NCBI RefSeq assembly: GCF_003428335.1 | Contig: NZ_CP031704.1 | Location: 3,844,001 to 3,908,000, forward strand | DNA from: Solimonas sp. K1W22B-7 | GTDB lineage: Bacteria; Pseudomonadota; Gammaproteobacteria; Nevskiales; Nevskiaceae | DNA: 64,000 bases | Direction: 5' to 3' | In this document: positions 30,298 to 57,423 of the stretch, one piece after another | Layout: the number at the start of each line of letters is the position of its first letter | Position numbering within the stretch: position 1 is the stretch's first letter | Position numbers and translations under genes: made by a program | Notes under the pieces: generated by a model | Seen by the model: only the letters and a program-made list of their open reading frames with translations | Told to the model about the DNA's origin: nothing | The model's database searches: none

Positions 30298-33200
30298 CTA
30301 TTCGTCCCGGTGGTGATACTCCACCGCCTGCTGGAAGGTCGGGCGGTTGGTCCAGTGGATCGGCGGCACCGGCAGGAAGCTGAAGGCAGTGTGCTTCACG
30401 GCGTCGGCGTCCTCGACGCGCTGGTCGCCGGCCGGGGCCAGCGGCGAGCCTTCCCACTGTTCCTTCGCCGCCAGGCCGCCGAGGTCGGCCAGGGCCTGGT
30501 CCAGGGCCGTCAGCACGGCGCTGCGGCACCCGGCCTGGCTGCCGTCGGCGCACTTGAGCTGGCGGTAGGGCGTGCGGGTTTCGCCGAGGGCCATCTGCAG
30601 CGTGCGGCGCATGTGCTGGAACCAGCCCTCCTGGTAGGCCGAGCCCTGGGCGCGCGGGTTGTCGTAGCGGCCCTGGCCGATATACCCCTCCTGCGCCACC
30701 AGCTGCGGCAGCATGCTGTCGATCAGGCGCGGGTACCAGGCGTCCATCAGCAGGACCTGGGCGCGCATGTCGTAGCTGCCGTCATGGTCGCGGTCACGGC
30801 GGTAGGAGCCGAAGCCGGGCTTGCCGTCGATCCAGGTCTGCGAGCCGGCGTCGATCCACTGCTGCATCAGCTCCGCCGCCTGCTGCTGGTCGGCGCTGAG
30901 CGTGCCCTTCTTCATCAGCTCCAGCAGCAGCGGCAGCATCTCCTGGCCGCGCAGGTCGGTGAAGGCGGCGTCGGCCATCACCTCGATCATGCTGGCGATG
31001 TCGTGCTTGCGGCCGCTGGCCTTGAAGGCCTGCAGGCGCTTGGCCAGCATGTCGACGCGATGCGTGGGGCCGAAGGTGCCGTTGAAGTCGGCCGCCCACC
31101 AGTCGCGCGCCGGCGAGTTGTTCCAGCTCATGGTGTAACCCTTCTCCGGGTTGATCGCCTGCGGATGCGCCGACAGCGGCAGGTAGCCCGGCCATTCGAA
31201 ATAACCCCGCAGCGGATCGCCCTGCGCCACCGGCTTGGTGCGGCTGGGGAAGGCCCGCGTGCCGCCGAAGTTGGCGAAGAAGTTGCCCTTGATCTCGGGT
31301 GCGTCCACCGCCCATTCGTAAAGCCCGTTGCCCCAGCTCGGAAGTTCCGGATGCACGCCGGCGGCGCGCTGCGGGTAGAGGCCGCTGTGGATGTAGCCGA
31401 CGTCGTCGCGATCGACGTAGATCCAGTTGAAGGTGCCGGTCATGCTGTTGAACAGGCGCTGGAAATCCTGCGCGCTCTTGACCGTGGGCGTGGTCACCAG
31501 CGCGAACGGCGCGGCGGTGTCCAGCTCGGCGAAGAAGGTGCTGCGCTGGCGCGAGATCGCGACCGGCTCGCCGTTGATCAGGGCGGTGGCGAACACCGGG
31601 CCGTAGTGCGTGCGCAGCACGTAGCGCCGGACATCCTGCGGGCCGGTGGGACCACCCAGCGCGATGCTGGCGACGGTGGGGTGCGCGGTCCAGCTGTCGG
31701 TCCGGCGGAACAGCGCGCGGCAGCGCATGCCCTGCCCGTCTCCGGCATCGACCACGTAGCCGTCGGCGTCGGGGAAACCATCGCCATTGCTGTCGTCGCG
31801 CGAGGCCGGCGTGCCGTCGAGCTTGCACAGCTTCGACACGCGCACGTCGACCAGGTCGGACTCGCCGGATGTGGCGCTGAAGGAGAAGTCGCGGCCGCGG
31901 CCGAGGTTGATGTACGGCAGGTTGCCGAACACGGCGCCGCGCCCGGCGAAGTCCTGCGCGGTGCCGCCGTTGGACTTGACCGCCACCTCCCACAGCAGCT
32001 GCGGCACGAAGTAGCTGGCCTGCGGGCCCATGATGCCGATGGGGTGGCCGCTCTTGCTCTGCGCGCCGGTCACGGCGATGTAGTTGGACAGGCGCATCGG
32101 CATGGCGAAGCCGGCGCGGCCCAGCGCGGCGTGCGCGCCAGCCGAGGGCTCCAGCGAGGCGTAGTAGGTATGCGCGGGCGCGCTCCTGTGGCGGAACGGC
32201 GGACGCACCTCGTCGACCTGGCCGACGGCACCGGGAATCGGCGTCAGGCTGAACACCGGCGACAGGCTCGGCAGCAGGTCGCCGATGTCCAGCAGGTTGA
32301 GCACGGTGGCCGGCGTCGGCAGGGGCAGCGGCAGTCCGCCGCTGTTGCCGGAAGCCAGCGTGGCGCGCGGCTGGAAGCTGCCGGCGTCCCACACCGCCGT
32401 GCCGGGCGGCAGGGCCTGCGGGCAGGTCTCGCTGACGCGCGGCGGCGACTGCGTGGCGTAGGCGGTGTCGATGCTGCGCGGCGTGTCCGGATCGTTGGCA
32501 TGGCGCACGTCGCGCCAGAACTCGCAGGCCACCTTGGGGATGGCGCCGCTGGCGGGGCCGAAGGATGGGTCGAGCCGCTGCAGCAGCTGCAGCGCGACAT
32601 GCTCGCTGCCGCCGCCGCTGGCGAAGATCGACTGGATCAGGATGGCGGAGGCGACGATGTCCTCGCGCCGGAACGGCTGCGGCGGAAACTTGAGCAGCTC
32701 GTTGCCGGGCTGGATCGACAGCGCGGCGTACTCCGGCGGTACCTGGCCTATGGCACCCGGCGTCCTGAGGAATTCGATGTAGGCGTTCATGCCCGCGACC
32801 TGCGCGTCGAGGTCACGCAACACCAGGCTGCTGACCGTGCCGAACTTGGCGGCGGTGGCCTCGATCATCTGCGTCAGCTCGGCCTCGCTGTAGCCGGCGA
32901 CGTTGGCGATGTCGGTGTCGAAGCCGAAGGTGTCGGGCGCCGGGCCGAGATACTCGGAGAAGCGGCCGCGGCCGACATAGCGCAGCACGTCGTAAAGCCA
33001 CAGGCGATCCTGCGCGCCGGCATAGCCGAAGCCATACATCGCCGCCAGGCGATCCTCGCCCTCGACGAAGGGTACGCCCCAGCCGTCGCGCTTGATCGTG
33101 ACGGTCTTGCCGTTGAGCGCGGTCAGCGTGGTGGTGGACACCACGCTGTCGGGCGTGAGGCCTTCGTGCTTGAAGTAGTTGCAGGCGAGGTCGGATTTCT

Positions 33201-33558
33201 CCTCGTGCTCGTCGATGTTCGCCGGCGGCGTGCAGGGCTCGGCCTTGAGGCCCTGCCTGGCATAGGCGAGGTGGGCGTAGAGATCGAGGCCGTCGCGGAA
33301 ATTCCTGGGATAGACGAACTGTGCGCCGCCCACCGGCAGGCCGAGGCCGCCGGCGGAGTTGCCGTTGGAGCCCGGCGGCATGGCGTTGAGCAGGATGCTG
33401 TCGGCCTCGTTGCCGCCCGGCGCATGGTTGCCGCCGCCATTGCTGCCACTGCCATTGCCGCTGGAGCCCGGGACCGGGTCGCTGCGGCCACCGCAGGCCG
33501 CCAGGACGAGAATGGCCGTGAGCGCCAGCGCATGGCCGGCCGTACGCATGATCGACAT
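30298..33558 (-). CDS. Penicillin-acylase-family Ntn hydrolase, lipoprotein
   Basis: This 1086-residue protein starts at ATG 33556-33558 behind GGGGAGAG. It has a lipoprotein signal (ALTAILVLAACGG) and a Gly/Ser/Asn-rich linker. The alpha chain includes VTIKRDGWGVPFVEGEDRL and YGFGYAGAQDRLWLYDVLR. The N-terminal nucleophile of the beta chain is Ser491 in RLSNYIAVTGAQSKSGHPIG, matching the SN(A/Y)xAV-GxxSxSG pattern. Family members cleave amide bonds of beta-lactams, acyl-homoserine lactones or acyl amino acids after self-cleavage. It is longer than typical (about 800), mainly through insertions between the chains. The substrate is unknown. Confidence 0.87.
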   Translation of the reverse strand: MSIMRTAGHALALTAILVLAACGGRSDPVPGSSGNGSGSNGGGNHAPGGNEADSILLNAMPPGSNGNSAGGLGLPVGGAQFVYPRNFRDGLDLYAHLAYARQGLKAEPCTPPANIDEHEEKSDLACNYFKHEGLTPDSVVSTTTLTALNGKTVTIKRDGWGVPFVEGEDRLAAMYGFGYAGAQDRLWLYDVLRYVGRGRFSEYLGPAPDTFGFDTDIANVAGYSEAELTQMIEATAAKFGTVSSLVLRDLDAQVAGMNAYIEFLRTPGAIGQVPPEYAALSIQPGNELLKFPPQPFRREDIVASAILIQSIFASGGGSEHVALQLLQRLDPSFGPASGAIPKVACEFWRDVRHANDPDTPRSIDTAYATQSPPRVSETCPQALPPGTAVWDAGSFQPRATLASGNSGGLPLPLPTPATVLNLLDIGDLLPSLSPVFSLTPIPGAVGQVDEVRPPFRHRSAPAHTYYASLEPSAGAHAALGRAGFAMPMRLSNYIAVTGAQSKSGHPIGIMGPQASYFVPQLLWEVAVKSNGGTAQDFAGRGAVFGNLPYINLGRGRDFSFSATSGESDLVDVRVSKLCKLDGTPASRDDSNGDGFPDADGYVVDAGDGQGMRCRALFRRTDSWTAHPTVASIALGGPTGPQDVRRYVLRTHYGPVFATALINGEPVAISRQRSTFFAELDTAAPFALVTTPTVKSAQDFQRLFNSMTGTFNWIYVDRDDVGYIHSGLYPQRAAGVHPELPSWGNGLYEWAVDAPEIKGNFFANFGGTRAFPSRTKPVAQGDPLRGYFEWPGYLPLSAHPQAINPEKGYTMSWNNSPARDWWAADFNGTFGPTHRVDMLAKRLQAFKASGRKHDIASMIEVMADAAFTDLRGQEMLPLLLELMKKGTLSADQQQAAELMQQWIDAGSQTWIDGKPGFGSYRRDRDHDGSYDMRAQVLLMDAWYPRLIDSMLPQLVAQEGYIGQGRYDNPRAQGSAYQEGWFQHMRRTLQMALGETRTPYRQLKCADGSQAGCRSAVLTALDQALADLGGLAAKEQWEGSPLAPAGDQRVEDADAVKHTAFSFLPVPPIHWTNRPTFQQAVEYHHRDE

Positions 33559-33866
33559 CGTTGTCTCTCCCCTCGTGGCGGCTTCTGTCGAGTCGCCTGA
33601 TTGTCGTTCGCCGCTCAACTATAGCCCTGCGGACGAAGTGCGGCTGCATAGTAAAATGCGCTTAGGTTTTCGGCGCTTATGCGATTTTCCGCAGGGCAGG
33701 CCGGAGCGGGGACTGCGCATGCCCGCCGACAAGGTGAGACCTGACTCAGGTGCGGCAAGAACCTGACACTTTCTTCAGGTTTGATCTCTCCTCAATACTC
33801 CGCCGCGACTTGCGGCGACGGCTTCGTGCGCCGCTGTCATCTCCCCGCAGAACCCGGAGAAAACTC
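33559..33866. other. Divergent intergenic region with inverted repeats
   Basis: This 308-base gap separates the acylase gene (-) from the PPC-domain gene (+). It holds promoters for both, including AT-rich text near 33646-33690 (TAGTAAAATGCGC). Two ACCTGA/TCAGGT dyads lie at 33739-33781. I see no credible gene here. The open frame extending upstream of 33867 is arginine-rich and unlike a signal peptide. Confidence 0.5.
33739..33781. promoter_or_regulatory. Two adjacent ACCTGA/TCAGGT inverted repeats (putative operators)
   Basis: The first dyad is ACCTGA-C-TCAGGT (33739-33751), a perfect palindrome around one base. The second is AACCTGA (33760-33766) and TCAGGTT (33775-33781) separated by 8 bases. 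The four identical half-sites, 86 bases before the PPC-domain start codon, suggest binding of a dimeric repressor or activator. The second dyad could also fold as a weak hairpin. Confidence 0.45.
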
Positions 33867-35453: not shown

Positions 35454-35948
35454 ATGGACCCGGAAGTGATGCGCAGCAACGAACTGGCGGCAGGGGCGCT
35501 CGAGGCGTTGCTGTCGCCCTATGGCCTGCAGCTGCAATGGCTGGATGCCGGCACGCCGATCCCCGGCAGCTACTGGGGCGAGACCGAGGCCGGGCTGGTC
35601 GGCGACAGGCTTTACCTGCGGCCCGACACGCCGGTGCATTCGGCACTGCACGAGGCCTGTCACTACATCTGCGTGGATGCCTCGCGACGCGCGACGCTGC
35701 ACACCGACGCCAATGGCTGCGACACCGAGGAAATGGGCGTCTGCTACCTGCAGGCCCTGCTGGCCGAGCAGCTGCGCGGCTACTCGCGTGCGCGCCTGTT
35801 CGCCGACATGGACGCCTGGGGCTACAACTTCGTGCTGGGCAGCGCCGCCGCCTGGTTCGAGGGCGACAGCGCCGACGCCCTGGCCTTTCTCCAGCAATAT
35901 GGGCTGGTGGCCTCGACCGGGCGACCCGGCGGACGGTGCCGGGCTTGA
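35454..35948 (+). CDS. Small HExxH putative metallopeptidase
   Basis: This 164-residue protein has no signal peptide. It carries HEACH at residues 66-70 in PVHSALHEACHYICVDASRR, an HExxH zinc-binding motif, with Glu82/Glu83 (DTEEMGVCYLQALL) suitably placed as a third ligand. The helix after it (LLAEQLRGYSRARLFADMDA) completes a minimal gluzincin-like core. I do not recognise a characterised family. Similar short conserved proteins occur in gammaproteobacteria without assigned function. A cytosolic metal-dependent peptidase is inferred, or a degenerate one. It is followed by the TPR/NTF2 gene after 103 bases. Confidence 0.65.
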   Translation: MDPEVMRSNELAAGALEALLSPYGLQLQWLDAGTPIPGSYWGETEAGLVGDRLYLRPDTPVHSALHEACHYICVDASRRATLHTDANGCDTEEMGVCYLQALLAEQLRGYSRARLFADMDAWGYNFVLGSAAAWFEGDSADALAFLQQYGLVASTGRPGGRCRA

Positions 35949-36051
35949 GGCACGGACGGCGACACCGTCCTGCAACAAGACTGCGCTAGCGTGGTCCTTT
36001 GGTGCGCCTTGCGGCCGCCGAACCTTCAGCCGTCTCCGCCAGTCCGCCCCG

Positions 36052-37989
36052 ATGAAACTCAAGTTTGCCGCCATAGCCCTGGGCCTCGCCCTGTCCACCA
36101 CCGCCTCGGCCACGGTCGTCACCGACGCCCGCCAGCTGCTCGCCTCCGGCGATGCCGGCATCGCCCTGGTGCAGCTGGACGCCTGGCTAGCCGAGCATCC
36201 CAAAGATGCCGAAGCGCGCTTCATGCGCGCCATGGCCCTGTCGCGGCTCGACCGCAAGCCCGAGGCGATCCGCGCCTTCACCGAGCTGATCAAGGACGTG
36301 CCGCAGTACCCGGAGCCCTACAACAACCTCGGCGTGCTGCTGGCCGGCATGGGCGACTACGCCAAGGCGCGAACCGCCTTCGAGAGCGCCATAGCAAAAA
36401 ACCCGCAATACACGGCGGCGCTGCAGAACCTGGAAAATGTCAATGTGGCGATGGCAATGCAGGCCGATCAGCAGGTGCTGGCCAAGGACCCGGCCAACTC
36501 CATAGCCCAGGCCAAGGTCGACCTGCTGCGCAGCGGGCACGGCGCCGCACCGCAGCCCGCCCCCGCAGCCGTAGCCGCGCAACCGGCCCTGGCATCCGCT
36601 GCCGCAACAGCCACAGCTGCTCCGGTCGAGGGCGCCAAGGCCGCGCCGCCTGTACCTGCCGCCTCTCCGGCGCCAGCAGCGAACGCCGAAGTCGGGGCGG
36701 CTGCCAAGGCCGTCGCCTCTGTGCTGCGCGACTGGGCGGATGCCTGGATCAAGCAGGACGTCAAACGCTTTTTCGACCACTACGCCAAGAACTTCGTCCC
36801 CGCAGGGGGGGGCTCGGCCGTGCAGTGGCTGGAGGATCGTCGCCACAAGATCCTGGCACCCAAGAAGATCGACTTGAGGATCGAGGACCTCAAAATCACG
36901 ATGACGGGAACACGGCAGGCCCGTATCAGCTTCCGGGAGCTGTATCGGTCCAACCTTTCCTCGAAGGGCCGGACACGCACCATGGAAATGAGCAACGTCG
37001 ACGGCAACTGGATGATTTCTTCAGAGCATGTTTCGAAGGAAACGGCTCTTTCCAGGTCGGAGCTCGCGTCGCTGACGCCTGCCGCTACCCCTGTGGAAAG
37101 CCCGAAGCCCGCAGGTGTTGCATCGGCAAATGCTGCCGCCAATCAGGCCGGAGACGCGATCACGGCCACACTGGAAGATTGGGCCGATGCCTGGACCAAG
37201 CAGGACGTGAAACGCTTCCTCGGCCATTACGCCAACGATTTCACCCCCGCGAACGGTATCCCAGCGCAGCAGTGGCGCGAGGACCGTCGTCGGAAAATCC
37301 TGGCCCCCAAGAAAATCGACCTGAAGATCGAGGACCTGAAGCTGTCGATGTCCGGTGCAGAGCAGGTGCGCATCAGTTTCCATGAGGTCTACCGCTCCAA
37401 TCTGTCGACAAGGGTTCGCAATCGGACCATGGAGCTGCGAAACAGCGGCGACAGTTGGAAGATCGTCTCCGAGAAAGTCGAGGGTGAGATCGTTCAGGCG
37501 CCTTCGGATGATTTGCCGGGCACTTCTCCGTCCGTGGAGGGCGCCACGACGGCCGCCACCGCGCCAACGAAGGCGGAAGCCGCAGCAGCGGCCGACTCGA
37601 TTACCGCTTCCGTACGCGACTGGGCCGATGCCTGGACCAAGCAGGACGTGCAGCGTTTCCTCAACCACTATTCCGAGAGCTTCACTCCGCCGGATGGATT
37701 GTCGCTGGAGCAATGGCGGGCGCAGCGCCGCAGCAGTATCGCCCGCGCCAAGAAGATCAACCTGACGATCGAAGACGTCAAACTGGCAATGCTCGATGAG
37801 CGGCATGCGCGCGTCAGTTTCCGGCAAACCTACCAGTCCGACCTGCTGTCGGATGTTCTGATCAGGACACTGGACTTGCGCAATGTCGATAGCCGTTGGC
37901 TGATCGAGTCTGAGAAAAAAGCCAAGCCTTCTCAGTCCAAGCAGGTACCTGGGGACACGGCCGGAAAGCGAACCGCTGCCAACCCCTGA
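36052..37989 (+). CDS. Exported TPR protein with three tandem NTF2-like modules
   Basis: This 645-residue protein has a signal peptide (MKLKFAAIALGLALSTTASA), TPR repeats over about residues 25-150 (AIALVQLDAWLAEHPKDAEA, PEPYNNLGVLLAGMGDYAKA) and an Ala/Pro-rich linker. Three NTF2-like domains follow. Each opens DWADAWxKQDV (residues about 227, 376 and 523) and contains APKKIDLRIEDLK or AKKINLTIEDVK, then ARISF and a closing W-x-I-x-SE. This domain type is found at the C-terminus of Cds6-like periplasmic proteins. Modules 1 and 2 are closest to each other, and module 3 is closest to the single module of the next gene. A periplasmic envelope or scaffold role is inferred. Confidence 0.8.
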   Translation: MKLKFAAIALGLALSTTASATVVTDARQLLASGDAGIALVQLDAWLAEHPKDAEARFMRAMALSRLDRKPEAIRAFTELIKDVPQYPEPYNNLGVLLAGMGDYAKARTAFESAIAKNPQYTAALQNLENVNVAMAMQADQQVLAKDPANSIAQAKVDLLRSGHGAAPQPAPAAVAAQPALASAAATATAAPVEGAKAAPPVPAASPAPAANAEVGAAAKAVASVLRDWADAWIKQDVKRFFDHYAKNFVPAGGGSAVQWLEDRRHKILAPKKIDLRIEDLKITMTGTRQARISFRELYRSNLSSKGRTRTMEMSNVDGNWMISSEHVSKETALSRSELASLTPAATPVESPKPAGVASANAAANQAGDAITATLEDWADAWTKQDVKRFLGHYANDFTPANGIPAQQWREDRRRKILAPKKIDLKIEDLKLSMSGAEQVRISFHEVYRSNLSTRVRNRTMELRNSGDSWKIVSEKVEGEIVQAPSDDLPGTSPSVEGATTAATAPTKAEAAAAADSITASVRDWADAWTKQDVQRFLNHYSESFTPPDGLSLEQWRAQRRSSIARAKKINLTIEDVKLAMLDERHARVSFRQTYQSDLLSDVLIRTLDLRNVDSRWLIESEKKAKPSQSKQVPGDTAGKRTAANP

Positions 37990-38271
37990 TCGGGGCACCG
38001 CTCGGTCTCCGTCGCAGGAGGTGCCGGCCTGCTCGTCTGCCGCCAATCACGTGGTCACGGGCGGAGATCGGCTGCGACAGTGCTCTCCTGCGCTTTCAGA
38101 CGCCGCCGTGGTGCATGGCCGGCCAGTCAAAAGGACGCTGCCGCGGCTGAGCGCAGCCGCAGCGCGACACGATCCTGCAATACGCCTGCCTTATCGTGAC
38201 CGGTCGACGGCGTTCCGCGAGTTGCGGCGGGCGCCCGGCGCTTTTTCCATCGCTCCCGCCAGATCGTCCCG
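37990..38271 (+). other. Spacer carrying a duplicated leader sequence
   Basis: The 282 bases between the TPR paralogues hold no gene I can support. The last 110 or so resemble the leader of the first paralogue. CGACACGATCCTGCAATACG (about 38166) parallels CGACACCGTCCTGCAACAAG (about 35959), and GCCAGATCGTCCCGATGAAA (about 38257) parallels CCAGTCCGCCCCGATGAAA (about 36039). The duplication therefore included upstream sequence. Confidence 0.6.
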
Positions 38272-39240
38272 ATGAAATTCAAGCTCGCTGCCGTCTTCCT
38301 GGGCATTGCCCTCAGTTCATCCGCAGGGGCGGCGACCGTCGTCCAGGACGCCCGGCAGCTGATCGCCTCCGGCGACGCGGGCATCGCCCTGGTGCAGCTC
38401 GATACCTGGCTTGCGGGCAACCCGAAGGATGCCGAGGCGCGCTTCATGCGCGCCATGGCGCTGTCGCGGCTCGACCGCAAGCCCGAGGCGATCCGCGCCT
38501 TCACCGACCTGATCAAGGACCAGCCGCGCTACCCGGAGCCCTACAACAACCTCGGCGTATTGCTGGCCGGCATGGGCGACTACGCCAAGGCGCGCACCGC
38601 CTTCGAAACCGCCCTGTCGAAGAATCCGCAGTACAGCTCGGCGCAGCAGAACCTCGCCGACGTCAACCTGGCGCTGGCCGGCGAGGCCTACCAGAAGCTG
38701 CTGGCGATGGACCCGGGCAATACCGTCGCGCAGGCCAAGCTGGAACTGTTGCGCAGCCTGCAGGGTAGCGCGCCGGCGAGCCCGGTTGCCGCCGCCACTC
38801 CCGCCGCCGCCACGGAGCCCGCCGCCGCCGAGGCGAGCGCATCTCCCGCAGCGACGCCGCCCGTGGCCGCGCCCTCGCAGGCCGATCTCCAGGCCGCGGG
38901 CAAGGACGTGGCGGCTTCCGTGCGCGACTGGGCCGACGCCTGGATCAAGCAGGACGTGAAGCGCCACCTGGGCCACTACGCCGGGGATTTCACGCCGCCG
39001 GGCGGCATGCCCCTGACGAAGTGGATCGAACAGCGCCGCTCCAGCATGGTCAAGCCCAAGAAGATCAACCTGAAGATCGAAGAGGTGAAGCTGGCCATGC
39101 TCAACGAACAGCAGGCGCGCATCAGCTTCCGCCAGAGCTATCAGTCCGACCTGTCCAAGGAGGTCGTGATCAAGACCCTGGACATGCGCAAGATCGCGGG
39201 CAGCTGGATGATCGCCGCCGAGCGCAACACGAACCCCTGA
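38272..39240 (+). CDS. Exported TPR protein with one NTF2-like module (paralogue)
   Basis: This 322-residue paralogue of the preceding gene has the same signal peptide type (MKFKLAAVFLGIALSSSAGA) and a nearly identical TPR region (DAEARFMRAMALSRLDRKPE is shared exactly). After an Ala/Pro linker comes one NTF2-like module (DWADAWIKQDVKRHLGHYAG, PKKINLKIEEVKLAMLNEQQ). That module best matches module 3 of the neighbour. This is probably the ancestral one-module form. It is predicted to be periplasmic. It ends at a strong bidirectional terminator facing the curli operon. Confidence 0.8.
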   Translation: MKFKLAAVFLGIALSSSAGAATVVQDARQLIASGDAGIALVQLDTWLAGNPKDAEARFMRAMALSRLDRKPEAIRAFTDLIKDQPRYPEPYNNLGVLLAGMGDYAKARTAFETALSKNPQYSSAQQNLADVNLALAGEAYQKLLAMDPGNTVAQAKLELLRSLQGSAPASPVAAATPAAATEPAAAEASASPAATPPVAAPSQADLQAAGKDVAASVRDWADAWIKQDVKRHLGHYAGDFTPPGGMPLTKWIEQRRSSMVKPKKINLKIEEVKLAMLNEQQARISFRQSYQSDLSKEVVIKTLDMRKIAGSWMIAAERNTNP

Positions 39241-39315: not shown

Positions 39316-40392
39316 TCAGCAGCCGCCGTCGGCGAGCGCGCTTTCGAATTCTTCGGCGGACACGGTCTGCGCCGCGCCATCGCCGATACGGATATCGACC
39401 CCGCCGTCTTCCCTGAACTTCAGGCGGGCGCTCACGTTCAAGGAACTCAGTACGATTTCGCCGGCGACAATCCCGGCGTCGCCCTGCAAGGGCGACCGGG
39501 TTTCGACTTCCAGTTCCCCGCCGACGCAGCCCTGCCGCGTGGACGTGAACGTCAGGGGGCCTTCGATGCGAACGCCGCCCTCCTCGTCGCGCTTCAGGGA
39601 AAACGAGCGGGCCGGTGTGCCGAGCCTGGCTTGCAGCGTTTGCGTCGCGGCCGCGCCGCGTCTCTCGGCGAAGCTCAGCGACAGGTTGCGGAAACGGCTT
39701 TCGATGTACGCCTCGACGACCTCGCCCTCTTCGTCGAAGCGCAGGATATCGCCGTTCTCGATCACGCCGGAGGCGGTGTAGCGGGAACGGCCGACCGGCG
39801 TCCCGGATTCGTCCAGTTCATCGAACCGTACCGAATAGGGGCGACTGTCGCGGCCCAGCACCACCCAGGCATAGCTGTCCGCCTGGTCGTCGAGCCCCGA
39901 GCCGGTTTCCAGGAACCCGTCGCGCGTCAGGTTTCCGCTCGAAAAGTCACTGGCGGCATATTCCTCCTGGCAATCGGCGAACAGGGTTTCCGCGCCACTG
40001 CCGTCGACCGGCAACTCTGCGCCGGCCGTTCCGCGAAACAGCGTGAAGTTGCGGACTCCCGTCGTGTCGCGATCGACGCGCTTGCCGTTGAGGTCGCATT
40101 CGCTGACCTCCGGCTCGCTCCGCGCCATGGCCTTGGCGGTGCTGCGCGCCGAGACCCGCGGCTCCGGAAAGGGAACCAGATCGCCGGAGCTGGGATCCAG
40201 CACCGCATGAAGACCCAGGACCACGCTGGCGGCGCGCAGTGCATCGTCGCGCGTGGCCACGGGGCCCGCCGCCGGAGCATCGTCTCCTCCACCGCAGCCC
40301 GCGACGATGGCGACTGCGGTGCAGGCCGCCAGGCGCAGCATCCGCACCGGACCGCCGGACCGCAGGATTCCCGCTCGCTGGATATCCGCCAT
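39316..40392 (-). CDS. Putative lipoprotein at the end of the curli operon
   Basis: This 358-residue protein is read from ATG 40390-40392, 14 bases after the curlin stop. ATG 40339-40341 would give 341 residues. Both lead into a lipobox (TAVAIVAGCGGGDD). The mature protein is beta-rich and charged, with text such as SECDLNGKRVDRDTTGVRNF, LFADCQEEYAASDFSSG and VIENGDILRFDEEGEVVEAY, and ends GGC. Six or more cysteines could form disulfides. I recognise no family. Its position suggests a curli-associated outer-membrane protein, but that is inference. Confidence 0.7.
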   Translation of the reverse strand: MADIQRAGILRSGGPVRMLRLAACTAVAIVAGCGGGDDAPAAGPVATRDDALRAASVVLGLHAVLDPSSGDLVPFPEPRVSARSTAKAMARSEPEVSECDLNGKRVDRDTTGVRNFTLFRGTAGAELPVDGSGAETLFADCQEEYAASDFSSGNLTRDGFLETGSGLDDQADSYAWVVLGRDSRPYSVRFDELDESGTPVGRSRYTASGVIENGDILRFDEEGEVVEAYIESRFRNLSLSFAERRGAAATQTLQARLGTPARSFSLKRDEEGGVRIEGPLTFTSTRQGCVGGELEVETRSPLQGDAGIVAGEIVLSSLNVSARLKFREDGGVDIRIGDGAAQTVSAEEFESALADGGC

Positions 40393-40406
40393 TGCCGTCG
40401 CGGCCT

Positions 40407-41111
40407 TCAATACTGCGCGCAATAGGCAGCGCTGCCGCTGCACAGCGTCATCGCCGTCTGGCCCGCACCGTCGAGCACGATGGGACCGAAGTTCGAGGTG
40501 TAGCCCGGCTCGACGTGGGCTGCCACCGACAACTCGTTGACCGAGGCTCCCGAACCACCGGGGTTGGTCTGCGTGATGGTCAGGTCGGTGTCGCCGTACT
40601 GGTTGACCAGTGCGTTGTTGTAGCCGTCCAGCTGCTGCAGCGTCAGGATGTTGCGGTCGTTGTACTGGTTGACCTGCGCCAGGTTGCCGCTGCCTTCCTG
40701 CAGCATCCGGGCGATGTTGTCGTTGCCGAGCTGGTCCAGCAAAGTGACCTGGTTCTGGCTGCCGCTCTGCGTCAGCAGGGCGAAGTTGCCGTTGCCGGTC
40801 TGGCCGATGCGGGCCTGGTTGTCGTCGCCGAAACCCTGGAACACCGCGACGATGTTCTGGACGCCACCCTGCTGCTCGATCTCGGCGCGGTTGCCGCTGC
40901 CCTCCACCTGGTTGATCAGTGCCAGCGTGATGCTGGGCGACTGGCTCAACAGGAAGGATTCCAGGTCCCGCGGCTCCGGCGGATCGACCTGGATCGGCGC
41001 GTTGTCGATGAACTGGTTGCGCGCCGCGAGAATCTCGGCGAACGGGTCGGCCTGTGCCGCGCCCGTGGCAGCCAGCAATGCCAGTCCCGCCAGGATCCTG
41101 TGCGCATTCAT
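40407..41111 (-). CDS. Curlin-repeat protein (CsgB/CsgA-like)
   Basis: This 234-residue protein follows a GAGAGGAG ribosome binding site, with a signal peptide cleaved after AQA. Residues of about 65-190 contain curlin repeats of the form Q-x(2)-G-x-x-N-x-A-x-x-x-Q, including QVEGSGNRAEIEQQGG, DDNQARIGQTGNGNFALLTQ, QNQVTLLDQLGNDNIARMLQ and GNLAQVNQYNDRNILTLQQL. These build a beta-solenoid amyloid subunit. The non-repetitive N- and C-terminal flanks suggest a nucleator (CsgB) rather than the main fibre subunit, but the sequence cannot settle this. It is secreted through the CsgG encoded 20 bases upstream. Confidence 0.85.
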   Translation of the reverse strand: MNAHRILAGLALLAATGAAQADPFAEILAARNQFIDNAPIQVDPPEPRDLESFLLSQSPSITLALINQVEGSGNRAEIEQQGGVQNIVAVFQGFGDDNQARIGQTGNGNFALLTQSGSQNQVTLLDQLGNDNIARMLQEGSGNLAQVNQYNDRNILTLQQLDGYNNALVNQYGDTDLTITQTNPGGSGASVNELSVAAHVEPGYTSNFGPIVLDGAGQTAMTLCSGSAAYCAQY

Positions 41112-41131
41112 GTGGCGACTCCTCTCGGGCT

Positions 41132-42286
41132 TCATTCGCGTCCGGCGTCGACGAAACTGTCCTGCGGCCGTGACGGCCTGGCGGCCGGCTGCGCCGCCGC
41201 TGCGGGACTGGCGTCACCCTTGCGCTTGCGCACGATCGCGCCGATCGCCTCGTCGGCGCTGGCTGCCTTCGGCACCGGTGCCACGACCGGTTCGACCCTG
41301 GGCGCGATTGCCACCGGCGCAGCGGCCGGCACGGCGGCGCGGGGCTCCGGCTTCGGCTCCGGCAGCTTCATCGGCATGTCCAGGTCGGAACCCAGGAAGC
41401 TCGGCACTTCCGGCGCGGGGGCCTTCTGCAGCGCCGCAACGTCGCGGTTGCGCAGCTTGGCGTAGACGCTCTGGATCACCGGGTTCTGGATATCCCCGGG
41501 GTTGGCCAGGACCCAGGATTTCTTCATGATGCCGTCGACCACCAGCGAGATCACCGCGGCCTCGATCGCTTCCTGGATCGCCAGCTGTACCGGCTCGTTG
41601 CTGGTGTAGCCGGCTTCCATCTCCAGCAATTCCTTGTAGGCGACGAAGCGGTAGACGCCCGGCTGGATCAGGGTGGAGTAGATCGTCTTGGTGGTGCTGA
41701 CGCTGTGCAGCACGCGGCCATTGCTGGTGTCGATGGCACGCAGGTTCACCGTCACCTGGTCCTTGCGGAACTGGTGCGAGGCGCCGATGCCGAGATACTT
41801 GACGCCGATGCCGCCGGTGGCGACGTTGAAGTCATAGCCGATCACCGAACCCTGGATGATCAGGTTGGCCGGCACCAGCGTCGGCAGCCCGCCGTTGCCG
41901 TTGCCCGCCGGGGGGGTCGACTCGCCGGACTTGATGATCTTGCGCTCGGTGAGCAGGTCGTTGAGACCTTCGCGCTCGACCGGGGCGAACCAGCCGGAGT
42001 CGGCCAGTGCCTGGATCAGGTAAGCGGCACCGCCCTGCGAAACGGCGGTGGAGAAAGAACTGTCGGGGGCCTGCTTGTACTGGCCGGTCTGGTCGCGAAA
42101 GCCGTACACCGCCACGCTGATCGGTCCCTTCGGCTGCGGCAGATGGCGCAGCTCGTCGGTCTTCTGCGTACGCGGCGCAACGTCCGCCGCAAGCTTGGTG
42201 CCTTCCGGCGCCTTGCTGAGATAGGCGGCACAGCCACTGGTCGCGCCGAGCGCGACAAGGGCCAGAATCTGGAGAATTCGTTTCAT
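41132..42286 (-). CDS. csgG: Curli secretion channel CsgG with C-terminal extension
   Basis: This 384-residue lipoprotein (lipobox ATSGC) forms the nonameric outer-membrane channel for curli subunits. Landmarks are HLPQPKGPISVAVYGFRDQT, GLNDLLTERKIIKSGE, LIIQGSVIGYDFNVATGGIG and EAGYTSNEPVQLAIQEAIEA. The constriction loop reads QAPDSSFSTAV. Aligned to E. coli, Tyr51, Asn55 and Phe56 become Ala73, Ser77 and Phe78. E. coli CsgG is 277 residues, whereas this one has an additional Pro/Ala/Lys-rich periplasmic tail of about 100 residues. It is preceded by a hairpin that may lower its expression relative to the upstream curlin. Confidence 0.95.
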   Translation of the reverse strand: MKRILQILALVALGATSGCAAYLSKAPEGTKLAADVAPRTQKTDELRHLPQPKGPISVAVYGFRDQTGQYKQAPDSSFSTAVSQGGAAYLIQALADSGWFAPVEREGLNDLLTERKIIKSGESTPPAGNGNGGLPTLVPANLIIQGSVIGYDFNVATGGIGVKYLGIGASHQFRKDQVTVNLRAIDTSNGRVLHSVSTTKTIYSTLIQPGVYRFVAYKELLEMEAGYTSNEPVQLAIQEAIEAAVISLVVDGIMKKSWVLANPGDIQNPVIQSVYAKLRNRDVAALQKAPAPEVPSFLGSDLDMPMKLPEPKPEPRAAVPAAAPVAIAPRVEPVVAPVPKAASADEAIGAIVRKRKGDASPAAAAQPAARPSRPQDSFVDAGRE

Positions 42287-42302
42287 TGGCTTTGAGACAT
42301 GT

Positions 42303-42335
42303 AAACCTCCCCGGCCTTTCCGGCCGGGGAGGTTT
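42303..42335 (-). terminator. Intra-operon hairpin between the large curlin gene and csgG
   Basis: AAACCTCCCCGGCC (42303-42316) and GGCCGGGGAGGTTT (42322-42335) form a perfect 14-base stem with a 5-base loop, but on the minus strand only three T follow. It would act as a partial terminator or as a 3'-end stabiliser of the curlin message. Confidence 0.7.
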
Positions 42336-42368
42336 GTTTACTGCAGCTTTTACGAGACGGAGAACTTC

Positions 42369-43610
42369 TTACAGCGGCGACACGTGCTGGTAGACGCTGG
42401 CGTAGTTGCCCAGGCCGAAGTCGCCACCGGCGGCGTTGTTGCTCTGGTAGACGAACGACACCGCCTGCTGGCCGAGCTGGTCGACGTTGGCGATGTTGCC
42501 GTCGCCGAACTGGAACAGGTACGACGAGTTGAAGGTGTCTTCCAGGCCAGCCTGGTAGACCTGCGCGATGTTGAAGTTGCCCGACTGCGCGATCAACGAG
42601 TAGCTGTCGGTCACGATGTCGCCATCGGCGTCGGTGTACTGGTAGGACTCGGCCACGTTGTTGCCGTCGCCATCGCTGTTCTGCACGATGATCGAGTTGT
42701 TGCGCTGACCGTGCTGGCCGATGAAGGCGTAGGAGTTGACCGTGGCCTGGATCACCAGCGCCTTGTTCAGCGCGTCGTCGCCGCCGGTGAAGGCGTCTTC
42801 GAGGTCGGCGAAGTCGTCGGTGCCCTCGTTCAGGGTGTTGAAGGTCAGCAGGGCGCCCTGCGTGACGAACGCCAGGTTGCCGCTGACGTTGTCCGGCTCG
42901 ACGTAGGCGGCTTCGCCCAGCAGCAGGTCGTTGGCACCGTCATAGTTCACCAGCAGCTCGCCGGCGGTGTAGGTCACGATGGTGTCGTTGCCCGAGGACG
43001 GGTTCTGCAGGGTGGCCAGCACCGTGCCGTCGACCGTCGGCGAACCGTCGTTGGCGACGATGTCGGCGCTGATCAGCGAAGCCTGGTTCGGGATGATGGC
43101 GTCGGTCTCGTCGCTGCGGGCCTGCACGACCAGCGCCTGCGAAGCCTGCTGGTGGTCCTGGAAGACCAGGCCGTAGTTGTTCGAGTCCACGCCCAGGAAG
43201 GTGTAGGCGTACGGCGCCACACCGCTGCGCTCGTCGACGTAGTCGGCCAGGCTGGAAACCAGCGGCGGCAGCACTTCGGCGGCGCCAGCGATGGCGGCGG
43301 CGCCGTCGGTGGCGGCGTTGCTCGCGGTGGTGCCGTCGTCGGCGATGGTCACGCCGGCGTCGCCGCTGCCGATGCCCTGCAGCACGGCGGCATAGTTGTT
43401 GTTGTCGGTGGTACCGTTGACGTTCAGGTCGGTCTGGATGATCGCGGCGGCCTGCGGCACGCCCTCGGTCACGATCTGGTTGATAGACGCGGTATTGCCG
43501 GTCTGGTCAGCCTGGTAGATGACGCCCTCGGTCGAGGTTTCGTCGGCGAATGCAACCGGGGCCACGAACATCGCCCCCAGCACAAGCGCCATGGAATGCT
43601 TCTTGAACAT
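42369..43610 (-). CDS. Large curlin-like amyloid subunit
   Basis: This 413-residue protein has a signal peptide (MALVLGAMFVAPVAFADE). Curlin-type repeats occur at the N-terminus (YQADQTGNTASINQI) and over the last 140 residues (AFIGQHGQRNNSIIVQNSDG, LIAQSGNFNIAQVYQAG, FGDGNIANVDQLGQQAVSFV, FGLGNYASVYQ). Between them is an acidic, repeat-poor region of about 200 residues. E. coli CsgA has 151 residues. It is encoded between csgF and csgG, so it is probably the main fibre subunit, secreted through CsgG. Low Lys/Arg and high Asp/Asn are typical of curlins. Confidence 0.8.
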   Translation of the reverse strand: MFKKHSMALVLGAMFVAPVAFADETSTEGVIYQADQTGNTASINQIVTEGVPQAAAIIQTDLNVNGTTDNNNYAAVLQGIGSGDAGVTIADDGTTASNAATDGAAAIAGAAEVLPPLVSSLADYVDERSGVAPYAYTFLGVDSNNYGLVFQDHQQASQALVVQARSDETDAIIPNQASLISADIVANDGSPTVDGTVLATLQNPSSGNDTIVTYTAGELLVNYDGANDLLLGEAAYVEPDNVSGNLAFVTQGALLTFNTLNEGTDDFADLEDAFTGGDDALNKALVIQATVNSYAFIGQHGQRNNSIIVQNSDGDGNNVAESYQYTDADGDIVTDSYSLIAQSGNFNIAQVYQAGLEDTFNSSYLFQFGDGNIANVDQLGQQAVSFVYQSNNAAGGDFGLGNYASVYQHVSPL

Positions 43611-43670
43611 GGATAAGCTCCTGGTAATTCAAACACTCAAGGTGTGGGAGGGTGCCGCCGGGGTTCTGTC

Positions 43671-44096
43671 TTAAAGCGCTTCAGTCTTTTCGAGAGTGAA
43701 GCTGGTCGTCTGACCGGTATTCCTGTCGGTGGTGGTGACCTTGATGCTCTCGCCCAGGTCCTCCACCGTGATGATGAAATCCTCCGTGGTCACCGTGCCC
43801 GGGATCAGGCCACCGTCGACACCGACGATCTGGCGGATCACCGCGGACTGGACACGGGTGAGCACGGCGTTCTGCAGTGCCTGGTTGAAAGCCTCCAGGC
43901 GATCCGCGGTGCTGCGGCGGGCAACCGGCGCCTTGTAGTCGTTCTGCGACTGGGCCTCGTTGAGCAGCACCGAGCCGTTGAGCGGATTGCCGCCGAAGCT
44001 GGGGTTGACCGGCACGTAGACCAGGGGTGCCGCCAGTGCGGCGGACACAGGCAGCGCGCAGAGCGCGGCAAAGGTCAGGCGTATCGTTCGTTTCAT
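43671..44096 (-). CDS. csgF: Curli assembly protein CsgF
   Basis: This 141-residue exported protein has a signal peptide ending near AALAA and the CsgF hallmark VNPSFGGNPLNGSVLLNEAQ followed by SQNDYKAP. The C-terminal part (DFIITVEDLGESIKVTTTDR, NTGQTTSFTL) also aligns with E. coli CsgF. CsgF inserts its N-terminus into the CsgG pore and positions the nucleator at the cell surface. It lies between csgE and the large curlin gene on the minus strand. Confidence 0.95.
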   Translation of the reverse strand: MKRTIRLTFAALCALPVSAALAAPLVYVPVNPSFGGNPLNGSVLLNEAQSQNDYKAPVARRSTADRLEAFNQALQNAVLTRVQSAVIRQIVGVDGGLIPGTVTTEDFIITVEDLGESIKVTTTDRNTGQTTSFTLEKTEAL

Positions 44097-44114
44097 GCTG
44101 TCCGCTCAAAAATT

Positions 44115-44507
44115 CTATAAACCGTCGCCACGCAGTTCGGAATCACCCGCCATGCTGTCAAGCTCGCTAGCCATCACGGACTGGTGGACGCGCCGCGCCG
44201 CATCGAGGGCGGCGGCGCGGGCAACGCGGCCGTTGAAGCCGATGAAGCGCTGGTACAACAGGGAGCCCCGGTAGCTGACGCTCATCTGGCACCCCAACCG
44301 GGCCGCCGGCTTCTCGCTGACGACCAGGCCGTACTGGCCGTCCGGATCGAGGGCCTGCCAGGATTCGACGAAGGCGTCATAGAACTCGCGGCCGGCGAAG
44401 GTCCGCGTTTCGTTGGTCAGCACGCCGGGAATGTCGATGTCCGCGGCCTGTGCCGGCGACAGCAACAGACCGGCGCACAGCAACGCCGCGAGCAAGCCTT
44501 TCCCCAT
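44115..44507 (-). CDS. csgE: Curli assembly protein CsgE
   Basis: This 130-residue periplasmic protein starts at ATG 44505-44507, chosen because it gives a clean signal peptide (LLAALLCAGLLLSPAQA). The mature text DIDIPGVLTNETRTFAGREF and YDAFVESWQAL, followed by GLVVSEKPAARLG, aligns with E. coli CsgE, the periplasmic adaptor that caps CsgG and delivers CsgA. It is the first gene of the curli operon. The 108 bases upstream separate it from the end of the giant exoprotein gene, and no strong terminator is visible there. Confidence 0.92.
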   Translation of the reverse strand: MGKGLLAALLCAGLLLSPAQAADIDIPGVLTNETRTFAGREFYDAFVESWQALDPDGQYGLVVSEKPAARLGCQMSVSYRGSLLYQRFIGFNGRVARAAALDAARRVHQSVMASELDSMAGDSELRGDGL

Positions 44508-44615
44508 GTTCCGGTTCCCCTGCCCGACCTGTACGCGGCCGAGCAGCGGCAATGTAGAAGGCTCATGTTGCATGGGCATGGCAAACAGAAGAATCTGGTG
44601 GCGCCGAATCGATCC

Positions 44616-47600
44616 TCAGAGGCAGTCCTTGCCCGGTTTGCCCGCCTCGCACTCCGAAGAGGCCGCTGGCGTCAGGATTTCCACGAACAGCTCCAGTTCG
44701 CCATCACGCTTGCGCCCCCCGGTGGCCTGTTCGGCGGAAGCCGCCACCGCTGCCGCCGCCGCGTTGGCCGCCGCGGCCGTGCCGGCGTCGGCAGCGGGAG
44801 CCTGTCCGGAGAAGCTGCCGCTGTCGGTCTGGATATTGTCGGCGTTGGCCACCTGCTGGGCCGCCACGTTGAGGTTGCCGGAGACCCGGATGCCGGCGTC
44901 GCCGGCGTCGACCGTGCCGGCCGGCGCCACCAGGTTGGCATTGCCGGCCGGCAGGCCCGGCTTGCTCTGCAGCGCGGCGATGCCGGCACCGCTGACCTGC
45001 GACTGGGTATCGACCGTGCAGAACAGGTTGTCGTCGCAGCTGAACGCCAGCGGCGGGATCGAGGAGCTGGTCTTGGCGCCCTTGCCGGCGTTGATGTCGC
45101 CGTTGGAGCTCCACATCAGCAGATCGCCGCCCTGCTGGGTGAAGACGCGGCTCTGCGCCAGCAGCACGCTCTGGTCGATGAACAGCCGCACCGCGCCTTC
45201 CTGCAGCGCCAGGATGCCCTGCGAGCTGGGGCCCACCGCCGCGGTATTGCCGGTCTCCGCGGTGAACGGCGGCGCGCTGGTGCTGCCGATCAGGAGCGGG
45301 CCACCCGGCCCGAGGATGTCGATGTCGCCGCCGAAGCGGGTCTGCACGGTCGAACCGCGCATGTCCAGGGTGCCGGTGCTGCGGGTGACGAGGGCACCGT
45401 TGCGGCTGCCGTCCAGGGCATTCTGGGTGTAGCCGAGGCTCGCCGGGAACAGGTTCTCGATGGCCTGGTAGCCGCGGCGATACTGGCCGGCGTAAAGGAT
45501 GTTGTCGGCGTTGTACTCCACACCCTGCGGGTGATTGCGGTCCACCACGCGGCGGGTCACGGCGTTGTAGTCCAGGCCCACCTGGTTGAGGATGTCGAGG
45601 AACACGGTGCCGACGAACTTCTGCCGCTGCTCCAGCGCCAGGCCCTTGAACACGGTCCAGGCCGCGGCCGGATTCAGCGCCGCGATCTGGGCACTGCGGT
45701 CCTGGCCGTCGCGCCGCTGCGCGTCGAGCAGCTGCTGGCGCACGAACGCCAGCAGCGCGCCGCTGTAGTCCGGCGTGCCGAGCAGGTCCTTTTCGTTCAG
45801 CGGGTCATGGTTGACCGCCGGGTTGATGTAGGTCTCGGCGAACGCCTCCAGCTTCATCCCCGGCCCGATGCCGTAGGACACCGAGATGTCGGCGCCGCTG
45901 CGGTCGAGGTAGAGGTTGTTGCTGTTGCCGACGGTGCGGATGCCGGGGAACTGCTCGCTGCCCTTGAACAGGTAGCCGGCGTCGCGTGCGTCGCCCGCCG
46001 AGGTGATCGGGCCAATATTGCGCCCCGCCGACACCGCCAGCGTGCCCGGGCCACCGAGTTCGATCAGCGGCACGAAGCGCGTGCGCTGCAGCGCCGGATC
46101 GAGCAGGTCGCGGCCGGCGGCGATGGTGGTGATGTCACTGTCGTAGAAGTTCTGGCCGGAGAAGTACAGGTTGACGATGTCCAGGCCGGCGCGGATCGAC
46201 GCCGGCTTGTCCAGCAGCAGGCGCAGGCCGCTGCCGCTGCCGACGTACTGCGGCACGCCGTCGGGATCGGCGGCCACGGCGGCATCGGTGGCGCGGTAGC
46301 CGTTGAGCAGGCTGCCGGCGACGCTGTAGATGCGCACCGGTTCGGTGTCGTGCGCATGCAGCAGCGCCGGGTCGCGCAGCAGGAAGTTGGACTGCGGGCC
46401 CTGGTCGATGTAGCTGCCGGTGGCGGGCAGCGCGGCCGGGGGCAAGGGGTTGTCGATCGACGGCAGCAGGCTCGCCAGCGCATCGATCAGGCCGAGGCGC
46501 TCGCCGCTGTTGCTGCGGCCCTGCAGCGTGATGTTGCGCTGGGCCAGCAGTTCGAGTTGGCCGTCGGCCGAGGGGAACAGTTCACCGCCGCGGCTCAGGA
46601 TCAGGTTGCCGCTGGCCGCCGCCACCGACAGGTGGGCGGGCAGCACGTAGAAGGCGCCATCCTGCACCAGGCTGCGGCTGACACCCGGCACCGAACCGTA
46701 GCGGCTGCCGGGCAGCACGGCCGCCGTGCCCAGGCGCGCATCGCCGGCCGCCGTCACCAGGCGCACCGCCGACGCAGCGCTGTAGGCGTTGGCGTCGAAG
46801 TTGGTGAACAGGTAGGAAGGGTTGAAGACGCCGCCGATACTGATCCCCTGCGCTGCCTCCGCACCGATCTTCGCGTCCTGCAGGGCAATCACCGAATCGG
46901 CGATCACGCCGAGCGCGCGCAATTCGCCGCCGCCGCTGGAGACGAAGTAGGAGCCGCCGCGGATGTCCCCGCCGGCCGTCACCTCGAGCTCGCCGCCACC
47001 GCCGATGCTGTCTTCGCGCTGGCCGCCGGCACGGGTCCAGGTGGTGGGCATCGAGACCGACAGCGAGTTGACGTCGCGGCCGGCCTGGATGCTGACGTCG
47101 CCGCCCATGCTGAGCAGGCCCTGCGCGAACATGCCGAAGTTGATCGAGCTGGAATCGGGCCGCGCGCCGCAACCCACCGCGGTGGTGAAGCAGGACGACT
47201 GCATCCACGGCCACCAGGCCTGGCTCAGGTCGGTACCGGCAGCGCCGGTGCGCGAACCGTCGGAGTCCGTGACCGTGGTCACCGCGACGATGTCGCGGCC
47301 GGCGCTCAGTCGCAGGTCGCCGGCGTCACGCGGCTGCACGTTGCCGGTGTCCAGCACCGGCGCCTGGCCGCCGGCCGCCGCCTGCAGCGCGGTCTGCGAC
47401 GGGCGCACCACGCCCTCGATGCCGGCGTGGCCGGCGGTGTAGATCACGCCCGGCGCCTGGGTGTCGGTGATCAGGATGTCGCGCGCGGCCACCACGTCGA
47501 TGCTGCCGATGCCGGTGCGCACCATGGTCGGCGTAACGATCTGCCGCCCCTCGTTGCCGGGGGCGTTGGAACTCGCGGTCTGGTGGCCGCTGAGGATCAC

Positions 47601-56942: not shown

Positions 56943-56976
56943 GGTCAGGCTCCTGCGGCGTGTCGGGATGCGAAGC

Positions 56977-57423
56977 TCAGGCGACGGCGGGCACCGCTGC
57001 CGGCGCATGCACCGGCAGGGTCCGAAGGTAGGTGATGAATTCGTGCAGCACGCGGTCCCACAGCTCGCAGTAGCCGCGCAGGCACAGCGGCGCGTCGCCG
57101 GCACCGATGAAGACGTCCATCGCCAGCACCAGGGTCTGCTGCGTGGTGTAGAGGCGCGCAAAGCGCTTGCTTTCGTTCCAGCGGCCGACCTGCGCGGGGC
57201 TCACCTGCCCCTCGACGTGGATCAGACAGCTGAAGGTGAAGTCGATGTAGCGGTCGGCCTGGTCCGGCGCGCGATTGCCCGGCATGAGGATGAAGCCCAG
57301 GCCCTGCACGGCGCTCTGCAGCATCGGCCGGCCATCCTGTTCCGCCAGCTGCGCACGCAGGCCGCTGGCGCGCAGGGTCTCGGCGGCTTCTTCGAGGGTG
57401 AGGCTGGAAATGAGGGGATTCAT
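56977..57423 (-). CDS. YbjN-family protein
   Basis: This 148-residue cytosolic protein has YbjN-domain features: SLTLEEAAETLRASGLRAQL, GLGFILMPGNR, YIDFTFSCLI, RFARLYTTQQTLVLAMDVFI and a C-terminal helical pair. The YbjN fold resembles type III secretion chaperones (shown for AmyR of Erwinia). It overlaps the upstream coiled-coil gene by ATGA (57420-57423) and lies 34 bases before the giant exoprotein gene. A chaperone role for that exoprotein is suggested by this position but is not proven. Confidence 0.82.
   Translation of the reverse strand: MNPLISSLTLEEAAETLRASGLRAQLAEQDGRPMLQSAVQGLGFILMPGNRAPDQADRYIDFTFSCLIHVEGQVSPAQVGRWNESKRFARLYTTQQTLVLAMDVFIGAGDAPLCLRGYCELWDRVLHEFITYLRTLPVHAPAAVPAVA

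Follow-up and report, generated by a model that had tools for sequence, protein, structure and literature searches.

At positions 35950 to 39240 of a 64,000-nucleotide stretch of the genome of Solimonas sp. K1W22B-7 (contig NZ_CP031704.1, positions 3,844,001 to 3,908,000; hereafter the window) lie two adjacent genes, designated L and S. Each encodes a signal-peptide-like start, a tetratricopeptide repeat (TPR) part, a linker rich in alanine and proline, and one or more NTF2-like modules of the Pfam family Cds6_C. The genome is assembled as one contig of 5.37 Mb. Both genes are on the forward strand with 282 bases between them, and the N-terminus of each protein, read by eye, has no lipobox. 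The features of the two genes are as follows:

35950..36051, + strand: leader of L, copied upstream of S; conserved 18-nt core at 35960-35977
36052-37989, + strand: gene L, 645 amino acids; a TPR part (about residues 20-163) follows the signal-peptide-like start, and an Ala/Pro linker leads to three Cds6_C NTF2-like modules and a tail
36697..37038, + strand: module M1, L residues 216-329
37144..37485, + strand: module M2, L residues 365-478
37585..37926, + strand: module M3, L residues 512-625; by identity closest to the S module
38160..38271, + strand: leader of S (second copy); core at 38165-38182
38272-39240, + strand: gene S, 322 amino acids; signal-peptide-like start, TPR part, Ala/Pro-rich linker and one NTF2-like module
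38893..39234, + strand: the single module of S, S residues 208-321

The TPR parts of L and S are identical at 123 of 160 amino acids (77%) and at 390 of 480 bases, and the 130 nucleotides upstream of the two genes align with a score of 61, which was reached by none of 2000 single-base shuffles (best 57). Because both the TPR parts and the upstream stretches match, L and S are tandem paralogues in which gene and leader were duplicated as one piece. This agrees with an initial annotation of the window, which had read them as tandem paralogues sharing leader, signal peptide and TPR part, and whose start at 35950 takes in the shared leader upstream of L. Four Solimonas genomes were examined, namely that of the window (G000) and three others (G001, G002 and G003), of which G002, Solimonas sp. 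BWSM_106, is a metagenome-assembled genome (MAG) given as 93% complete. At the syntenic spot G002 carries a single-module TPR-NTF2 gene, here called G2, and a genome of another genus (G074) has a diverged relative, the single-module TPR gene H74. Across these five genomes the leader core has no exact matches other than those in front of L, S and G2, two in the window genome and one in G002. With one or two mismatches, 6, 3, 5, 3 and 3 further sites are found in G000, G001, G002, G003 and G074, compared with 5, 1, 0, 2 and 1 for a reversed control, the excess in G002 being five near matches (two mismatches each) against none; one near-match site is common to G000-G003. A scan for a sigma-70 promoter and a terminator gave nothing above shuffled sequence.

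The cell-shape enzymes Csd6, Pgp2 and Bd1075 have an NTF2-like domain that Pfam lists as Cds6_C (PF24125, curated cut-off 27 bits). This domain matches three stretches of L (156.6 bits, E 3.4e-46) and one of S (51.2 bits, E 1.7e-13), both over the cut-off, which the modules of L also exceed when taken singly (47.3, 61.7 and 61.3 bits), in keeping with the three modules and one module first annotated. Successive module copies start 447, 441 and 1308 nucleotides apart in the DNA, so that the spacing inside L is 149 and 147 residues, where about 148 had been given. TPR repeats (TPR_2, TPR_17 and others) are above cut-off in both proteins. Neither a YkuD catalytic domain nor any Csg or curlin family is found among the best 25 of 28 families for L or the best 25 of 26 for S (E up to 1), Csg and curlin families being matched only by neighbouring genes. 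In a structural model of S with a predicted local distance difference test (pLDDT) score of 77.6, a TPR superhelix is joined to an NTF2 cone. The cone gives its highest Z with Csd6 of H. pylori (4xzz; Z 16.9, root mean square deviation 1.9, 118 aligned) and also matches Pgp2 (6xj7, Z 16.0) and Bd1075 (7o21, Z 15.2); many other NTF2-like folds score alike, among them the association domains of CaMKII, which are hubs (Z 15.7).

A contig scan with L as query found one locus, in G002, and S has matches at E <= 1e-75 in 2 of 85 genomes of the order (the window genome and G002). At E <= 0.001, counting weak matches to the TPR part only, S is matched in 57 of 61 near genomes. In the window genome Cds6_C is matched six times at E <= 0.001, namely three times in L and once each in S, in a paralogue designated A, which also exceeds the Cds6_C cut-off, and in the gene directly downstream of A, which encodes a YkuD L,D-transpeptidase/carboxypeptidase ending in the same kind of module (LDT). 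The totals are two domains in G001, two in G003 and three in G002. The older pair is located as follows:

genome 5189768-5190727: paralogue A (TPR-NTF2); signal-peptide-like start, TPR, linker and one Cds6_C
genome 5189768-5192067 (locus L007, 5769-8068), + strand: A and LDT pair; conserved TPR-NTF2 gene and LDT with YkuD and Cds6_C

We took a census of TPR-NTF2 genes in the loci fetched from the 61 near genomes, out of 85 in the order, plus H74. L, S and H74 (35 bits) were entered by hand, the count excludes L087 and L088, whose modules are below 80 bits, and L072, which lies at a contig edge, and one linked gene, L095, is cut by the contig start. For the number of modules, a gene was counted as linked if any second Cds6_C frame adjoins it (48 genes); for a 75-row module tree and the pocket and motif counts below, the partner also had to have a YkuD-like motif (45 of the 48, the partners in L065, L073 and L081 having none). 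All 48 linked genes are single-module, whereas 7 of the 19 unlinked genes are multi-module, these being L and six two-module genes of one family of the order, f6 (Fisher p 5.8e-5, or 4.1e-5 without H74; the test ignores kinship, and the tree shows about two events). Cds6_C is present in 24 of 143 genomes drawn from the class, and in four of six class loci read, belonging to four further families, a gene with TPR and one Cds6_C adjoins an LDT. On these comparisons the ancestral gene is taken to be an exported single-module TPR protein beside an LDT that also ends in Cds6_C.

By amino acid identity M1 pairs with M2 (57%, 72/126) and M3 with the S module (57%, 68/119), and the four cross pairs are at 47-49%; the grouping in the initial annotation was right in outline. 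In a 35-row tree (M1, M2, M3, S, G2 and 30 A modules as outgroup) all five modules come together with support of 100/100, M1 with M2 at 98/88, and these two with G2 at 99/99, the last two clades having 100/65 and 100/98 in the 75-row tree. A clade of M1, M2 and M3 without S, the arrangement that the initial annotation had named as incompatible with its proposal, was rejected (log likelihood 28.4 lower; approximately unbiased (AU) test, p 0.022), as were {M1,M2,M3,S} without G2 (p 0.026) and a clade of M3 with M1 (p 0.0003). M3 with S is compatible with the 35-row tree (p 0.42) but is contradicted by the 75-row tree, where S falls with the modules M1, M2 and G2; neither M1 with G2 nor M2 with G2 was rejected (p 0.27 and 0.11). 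The trees favor, but do not prove, an M1-M2 duplication later than the separation from G2. The motifs quoted initially are all present, and KKIN and YQSDL occur in M3 and S alone among 75 modules, whereas F-x-Q-x-Y-x-[S/A] is found in 44 of the 45 LDT-linked modules; because it is ancestral, this part of the resemblance is no evidence. For the TPR part, L groups with G2 (97/88), and TPR part plus first module place L and G2 together against S (100/99). Sites shared in the TPR part number 49 for L and G2, 30 for S and G2 and 22 for L and S, and {S,G2} has an AU p of 0.086. Synonymous divergence (Ks) of the TPR part is 0.50 for L-S, 0.43 for S-G2 and 0.32 for L-G2.

Downstream of S, genes on the opposite strand include a curli cluster:

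39316..40398, - strand: lipoprotein-like gene of no known family, convergent to S; also the neighbour of the TPR-NTF2 gene of G002 and of that of G074
40407..44579, - strand: curli (type VIII secretion) cluster, comprising a curlin-repeat protein, CsgG, a second curlin-repeat protein (weak, E 0.0069), CsgF and CsgE
44616-57008, - strand: exoprotein of 4130 amino acids with a two-partner secretion (TPS) domain and DUF3739, a TPS/filamentous-haemagglutinin gene directly beside csgE

The gene order at this spot is common to G000, G002 and G074. A CsgG relative (E <= 1e-20) is present in 7 of 58 genomes of the family, and within the four genus genomes only in G000 and G002, the carriers of L, S or G2; weaker matches occur in G006 and G034. 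H74, on a long branch, joins S, L and G2 with support of 98/87. It was missed by the strict family search and is not listed by Pfam Cds6_C, and was found by reading the csg locus (35 bits with our own profile), so that further diverged copies at csg loci may have been missed. The gene at locus L074, also on a long branch, is placed close to the curli clade (96/97) and has no csg neighbour within 7 kb.

In Pgp2 the NTF2 pocket binds peptidoglycan, and the residues of the pocket have been shown by mutation or nuclear magnetic resonance (PMC8038945). We transferred positions W225, Y233, F242, K257, K307 and E324 through an alignment of the window genome's LDT with 6xj6, the residue offset being counted by hand. 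In 45 of 45 linked modules the equivalents of W225, Y233 and E324 are kept, K257 is R and K307 is K, and the F242 position has F in 42 and Y in 3. These six positions read W F F R R E in M1, M2, M3 and G2, W H F R K E in S and Q F Y E R D in H74 (read by eye), where W225 has become Q and K257 has become E. A basic residue is retained at the K257 and K307 positions in M1, M2, M3, S and G2, and the changes in L are mostly conservative and would allow binding.

Taken as a whole, a reading to which we give an even chance is that a relocated copy at the curli spot was duplicated with its leader, that L gained modules, and that the products are wall-binding-type proteins. L and S would derive from a copy that left the older two-gene unit of TPR-NTF2 and LDT and is now at the end of the curli cluster. 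The duplication of the departed copy, leader included, would most likely precede the separation of the window species from G002, in which S would then have been lost; the split of L and S and both module types appear, from sequence comparison, to be older than that separation. M1 and M2 may have arisen in L by internal tandem duplication of a G2-type module, M3 being either captured from S by exchange or inherited from a two-module ancestor. By analogy with Pgp2, the likely function is that of a TPR scaffold with three (L) or one (S) peptidoglycan-binding-type pockets. We infer that the proteins are periplasmic, that the TPR part docks a partner, and that each NTF2 cone forms a pocket homologous to the peptidoglycan-binding pocket of Pgp2; the three pockets of L, on flexible Ala/Pro linkers, would give a multivalent, cross-bridging attachment to the wall, and S a monovalent one, the changed pocket residues suggesting an altered ligand preference.

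Several observations weigh against this reading. L and S are convergent to the csg genes, which is synteny and not an operon, and in G032 and G066, which have a csg cluster, the 17 kb read showed neither a lipoprotein gene nor a TPR-NTF2 gene. The model of L is weak (pLDDT 59.8), showing about the same element order three times. At the Y233 position there is F (M1, M2, M3, G2) or H (S) and at K307 there is R in M1-M3 and G2, and by such substitutions ligand binding could be changed or lost. Over codons 55-80 of the TPR part, sites shared by L and S outnumber those shared by L and G2, which may mark a tract of gene conversion (runs test P 0.15). The genome used for comparison, G002, is a MAG with a stated completeness of 93%. 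In addition, L and S as sisters on the TPR part were not rejected (AU p 0.106), and CsgG of the window and of G002 differ by a Ks of 0.52, as high as the 0.50 of L-S. The last two points also favor the order of events in the initial annotation, in which a single-module gene was duplicated in the window lineage only and M1 and M2 were then copied from an M3-like module, and so does the presence in G002 of one gene between leader and lipoprotein gene. Whole-gene duplication and module copying inside L are supported parts of that proposal; a duplication first in this lineage and an M3-like source for M1 and M2 are not, and we consider the order as such very unlikely, given the {M1,M2,G2} clade and the rejected alternatives above. 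The comparison with a single-gene relative that the annotation had suggested also goes the other way, the G2 module being of the M1/M2 type and its TPR part going with L. Between the window and G002, Ks is 0.31 for A, 0.34 for LDT and 0.49 and 0.25 for the curlin genes, with no value obtained for the lipoprotein-like genes, so that the L-S value is clearly above four of six pairs (0.25, 0.31, 0.32, 0.34) and level with the others (0.49, 0.52). The spread of Ks among genes is wide, which makes this argument weak alone, and a split of L and S before the species split, with loss of S in G002, rests on topology and module types rather than on Ks. The codon-level dating of M1-M2 proposed initially is not possible at a Ks of 1.44, which is near saturation. 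A tentative alternative, somewhat on the unlikely side, is that one M1/M2-type and one M3-type module were both present in the gene at the curli spot before both splits, that S lost one type and G2 the M3 type, and that L later duplicated its first module. In favor of this history, M3-S (Ks 0.67, 58% identity) and S-G2 (0.70, 53%) are about equally distant, and M3 falls outside {S,G2,M1,M2} in the 75-row tree (100/86, with a program warning of long branches) and in the 35-row tree (76/42); it requires two independent losses, however, the diverged relative H74 is single-module, and KKIN and YQSDL are common to M3 and S alone.

With regard to function, the modules of L and S may no longer bind peptidoglycan, and may instead be hubs for oligomerisation or recognise a ligand that belongs to the curli/TPS exoprotein cluster. 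The changes at the otherwise invariant Y and K positions, which go further in H74, the spot beside the csg genes in three genomes and the match of the S module to CaMKII hub domains would all suit this explanation, which we hold to be possible but doubtful. Against it, W, F, E and the basic residue at 257 are kept, structural similarity to a hub does not demonstrate a function, and Y233F Pgp2 was reported still to be pulled down with sacculi (PMC8038945). A relaxed constraint on L, with the module array drifting without a selected function, is highly improbable: the GC content at third codon positions of its linkers and modules (36532-37989, + strand) is 0.57-0.81 compared with 0.91 and 0.95 in the G2 and S modules, and module Ks reaches 1.44, but the frame of 645 codons is open, the ratio of nonsynonymous to synonymous divergence is 0.20-0.53 for every module pair and TPR pair, and the six pocket residues are identical across M1, M2 and M3. 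Within the reading of L and S as relocated wall-binding-type proteins, a more specific and distinctly speculative version, which we think improbable, is that a wall-binding module left the transpeptidase operon, had its pocket retuned and was multiplied into a trivalent periplasmic clamp that would anchor the curli/TPS export site, or assembly partners, to peptidoglycan, with S as a monovalent partner or competitor.

The LD-carboxypeptidases Csd6, Pgp2 and Bd1075 of Helicobacter, Campylobacter and Bdellovibrio resemble L and S in the NTF2-like module, by Cds6_C sequence and by the predicted S fold, but no YkuD domain is seen in L and S, its place being taken by a TPR part, and L bears three copies of the module. 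The Csd6/Pgp2-type NTF2 domain, studied as an accessory of cell-shape enzymes, appears here as a repeatable unit of its own on a TPR scaffold. The A-type gene beside an LDT, present across the order, is like L and S in its signal-peptide-like start, TPR, linker and Cds6_C. In contrast, L, S and G2 have a curli cluster and no LDT as neighbour and show substitutions in the pocket, and L differs further in its three modules. As the presumed ancestral form stays beside such an enzyme throughout the order, and in further families of the class as well, the pairing suggests that A is a candidate for an unstudied partner protein of LD-carboxypeptidases. Searches of open-access PMC brought up no title or abstract opening on a TPR-NTF2 partner of LD-carboxypeptidases or on a three-module form, which does not prove absence.

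Tandem repetition as in L is seen also in the f6 genes and within LDTs of two other families of the class (G204 and G224), where the LDT itself has two Cds6_C modules; these are the other two of the six class loci, picked for the trait:

L122 2144-3463 and L123 1941-3425, + strand: two-module LDTs, Cds6_C

The f6 genes differ from L in that their modules form clades of their own in the 75-row tree, number two rather than three, and have a chorismate synthase gene and not csg genes as neighbour (in three loci scanned of six). Repetition of the Cds6_C module is therefore recurrent, inside LDTs too, and three is the highest number seen. The resulting natural series, with module numbers from one to three, can be used to ask whether multivalent wall binding matters, and the cluster-specific changes, at one or two pocket positions that are otherwise invariant, open ligand preference to tests by single substitution in laboratory proteins. 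The COG4875/4337 domain of iota carbonic anhydrase is NTF2-like. It is reported to be repeated one to several times (PMC8395977), a likeness to L by description only, and it differs in being an enzyme and not a wall-binding module.

Three further observations concern the surroundings of L and S. Curli and two-partner secretion genes are mixed at the 4130-amino acid exoprotein, relatives of which are found at the csg loci of G002, G074, G032 and G066. Upstream of L, at 35454-35948 on the + strand, a gene of 164 amino acids has an HExxH-like motif (HEACH), no Pfam or NCBIfam match over cut-off, and no homologue in the 18-kb locus of G002. Farther upstream, an open frame of 1096 amino acids (30310-33600, + strand) is antisense to one of 1106 amino acids (30298-33618, - strand), which is putatively acylase-like, and is probably a shadow frame of high-GC DNA.

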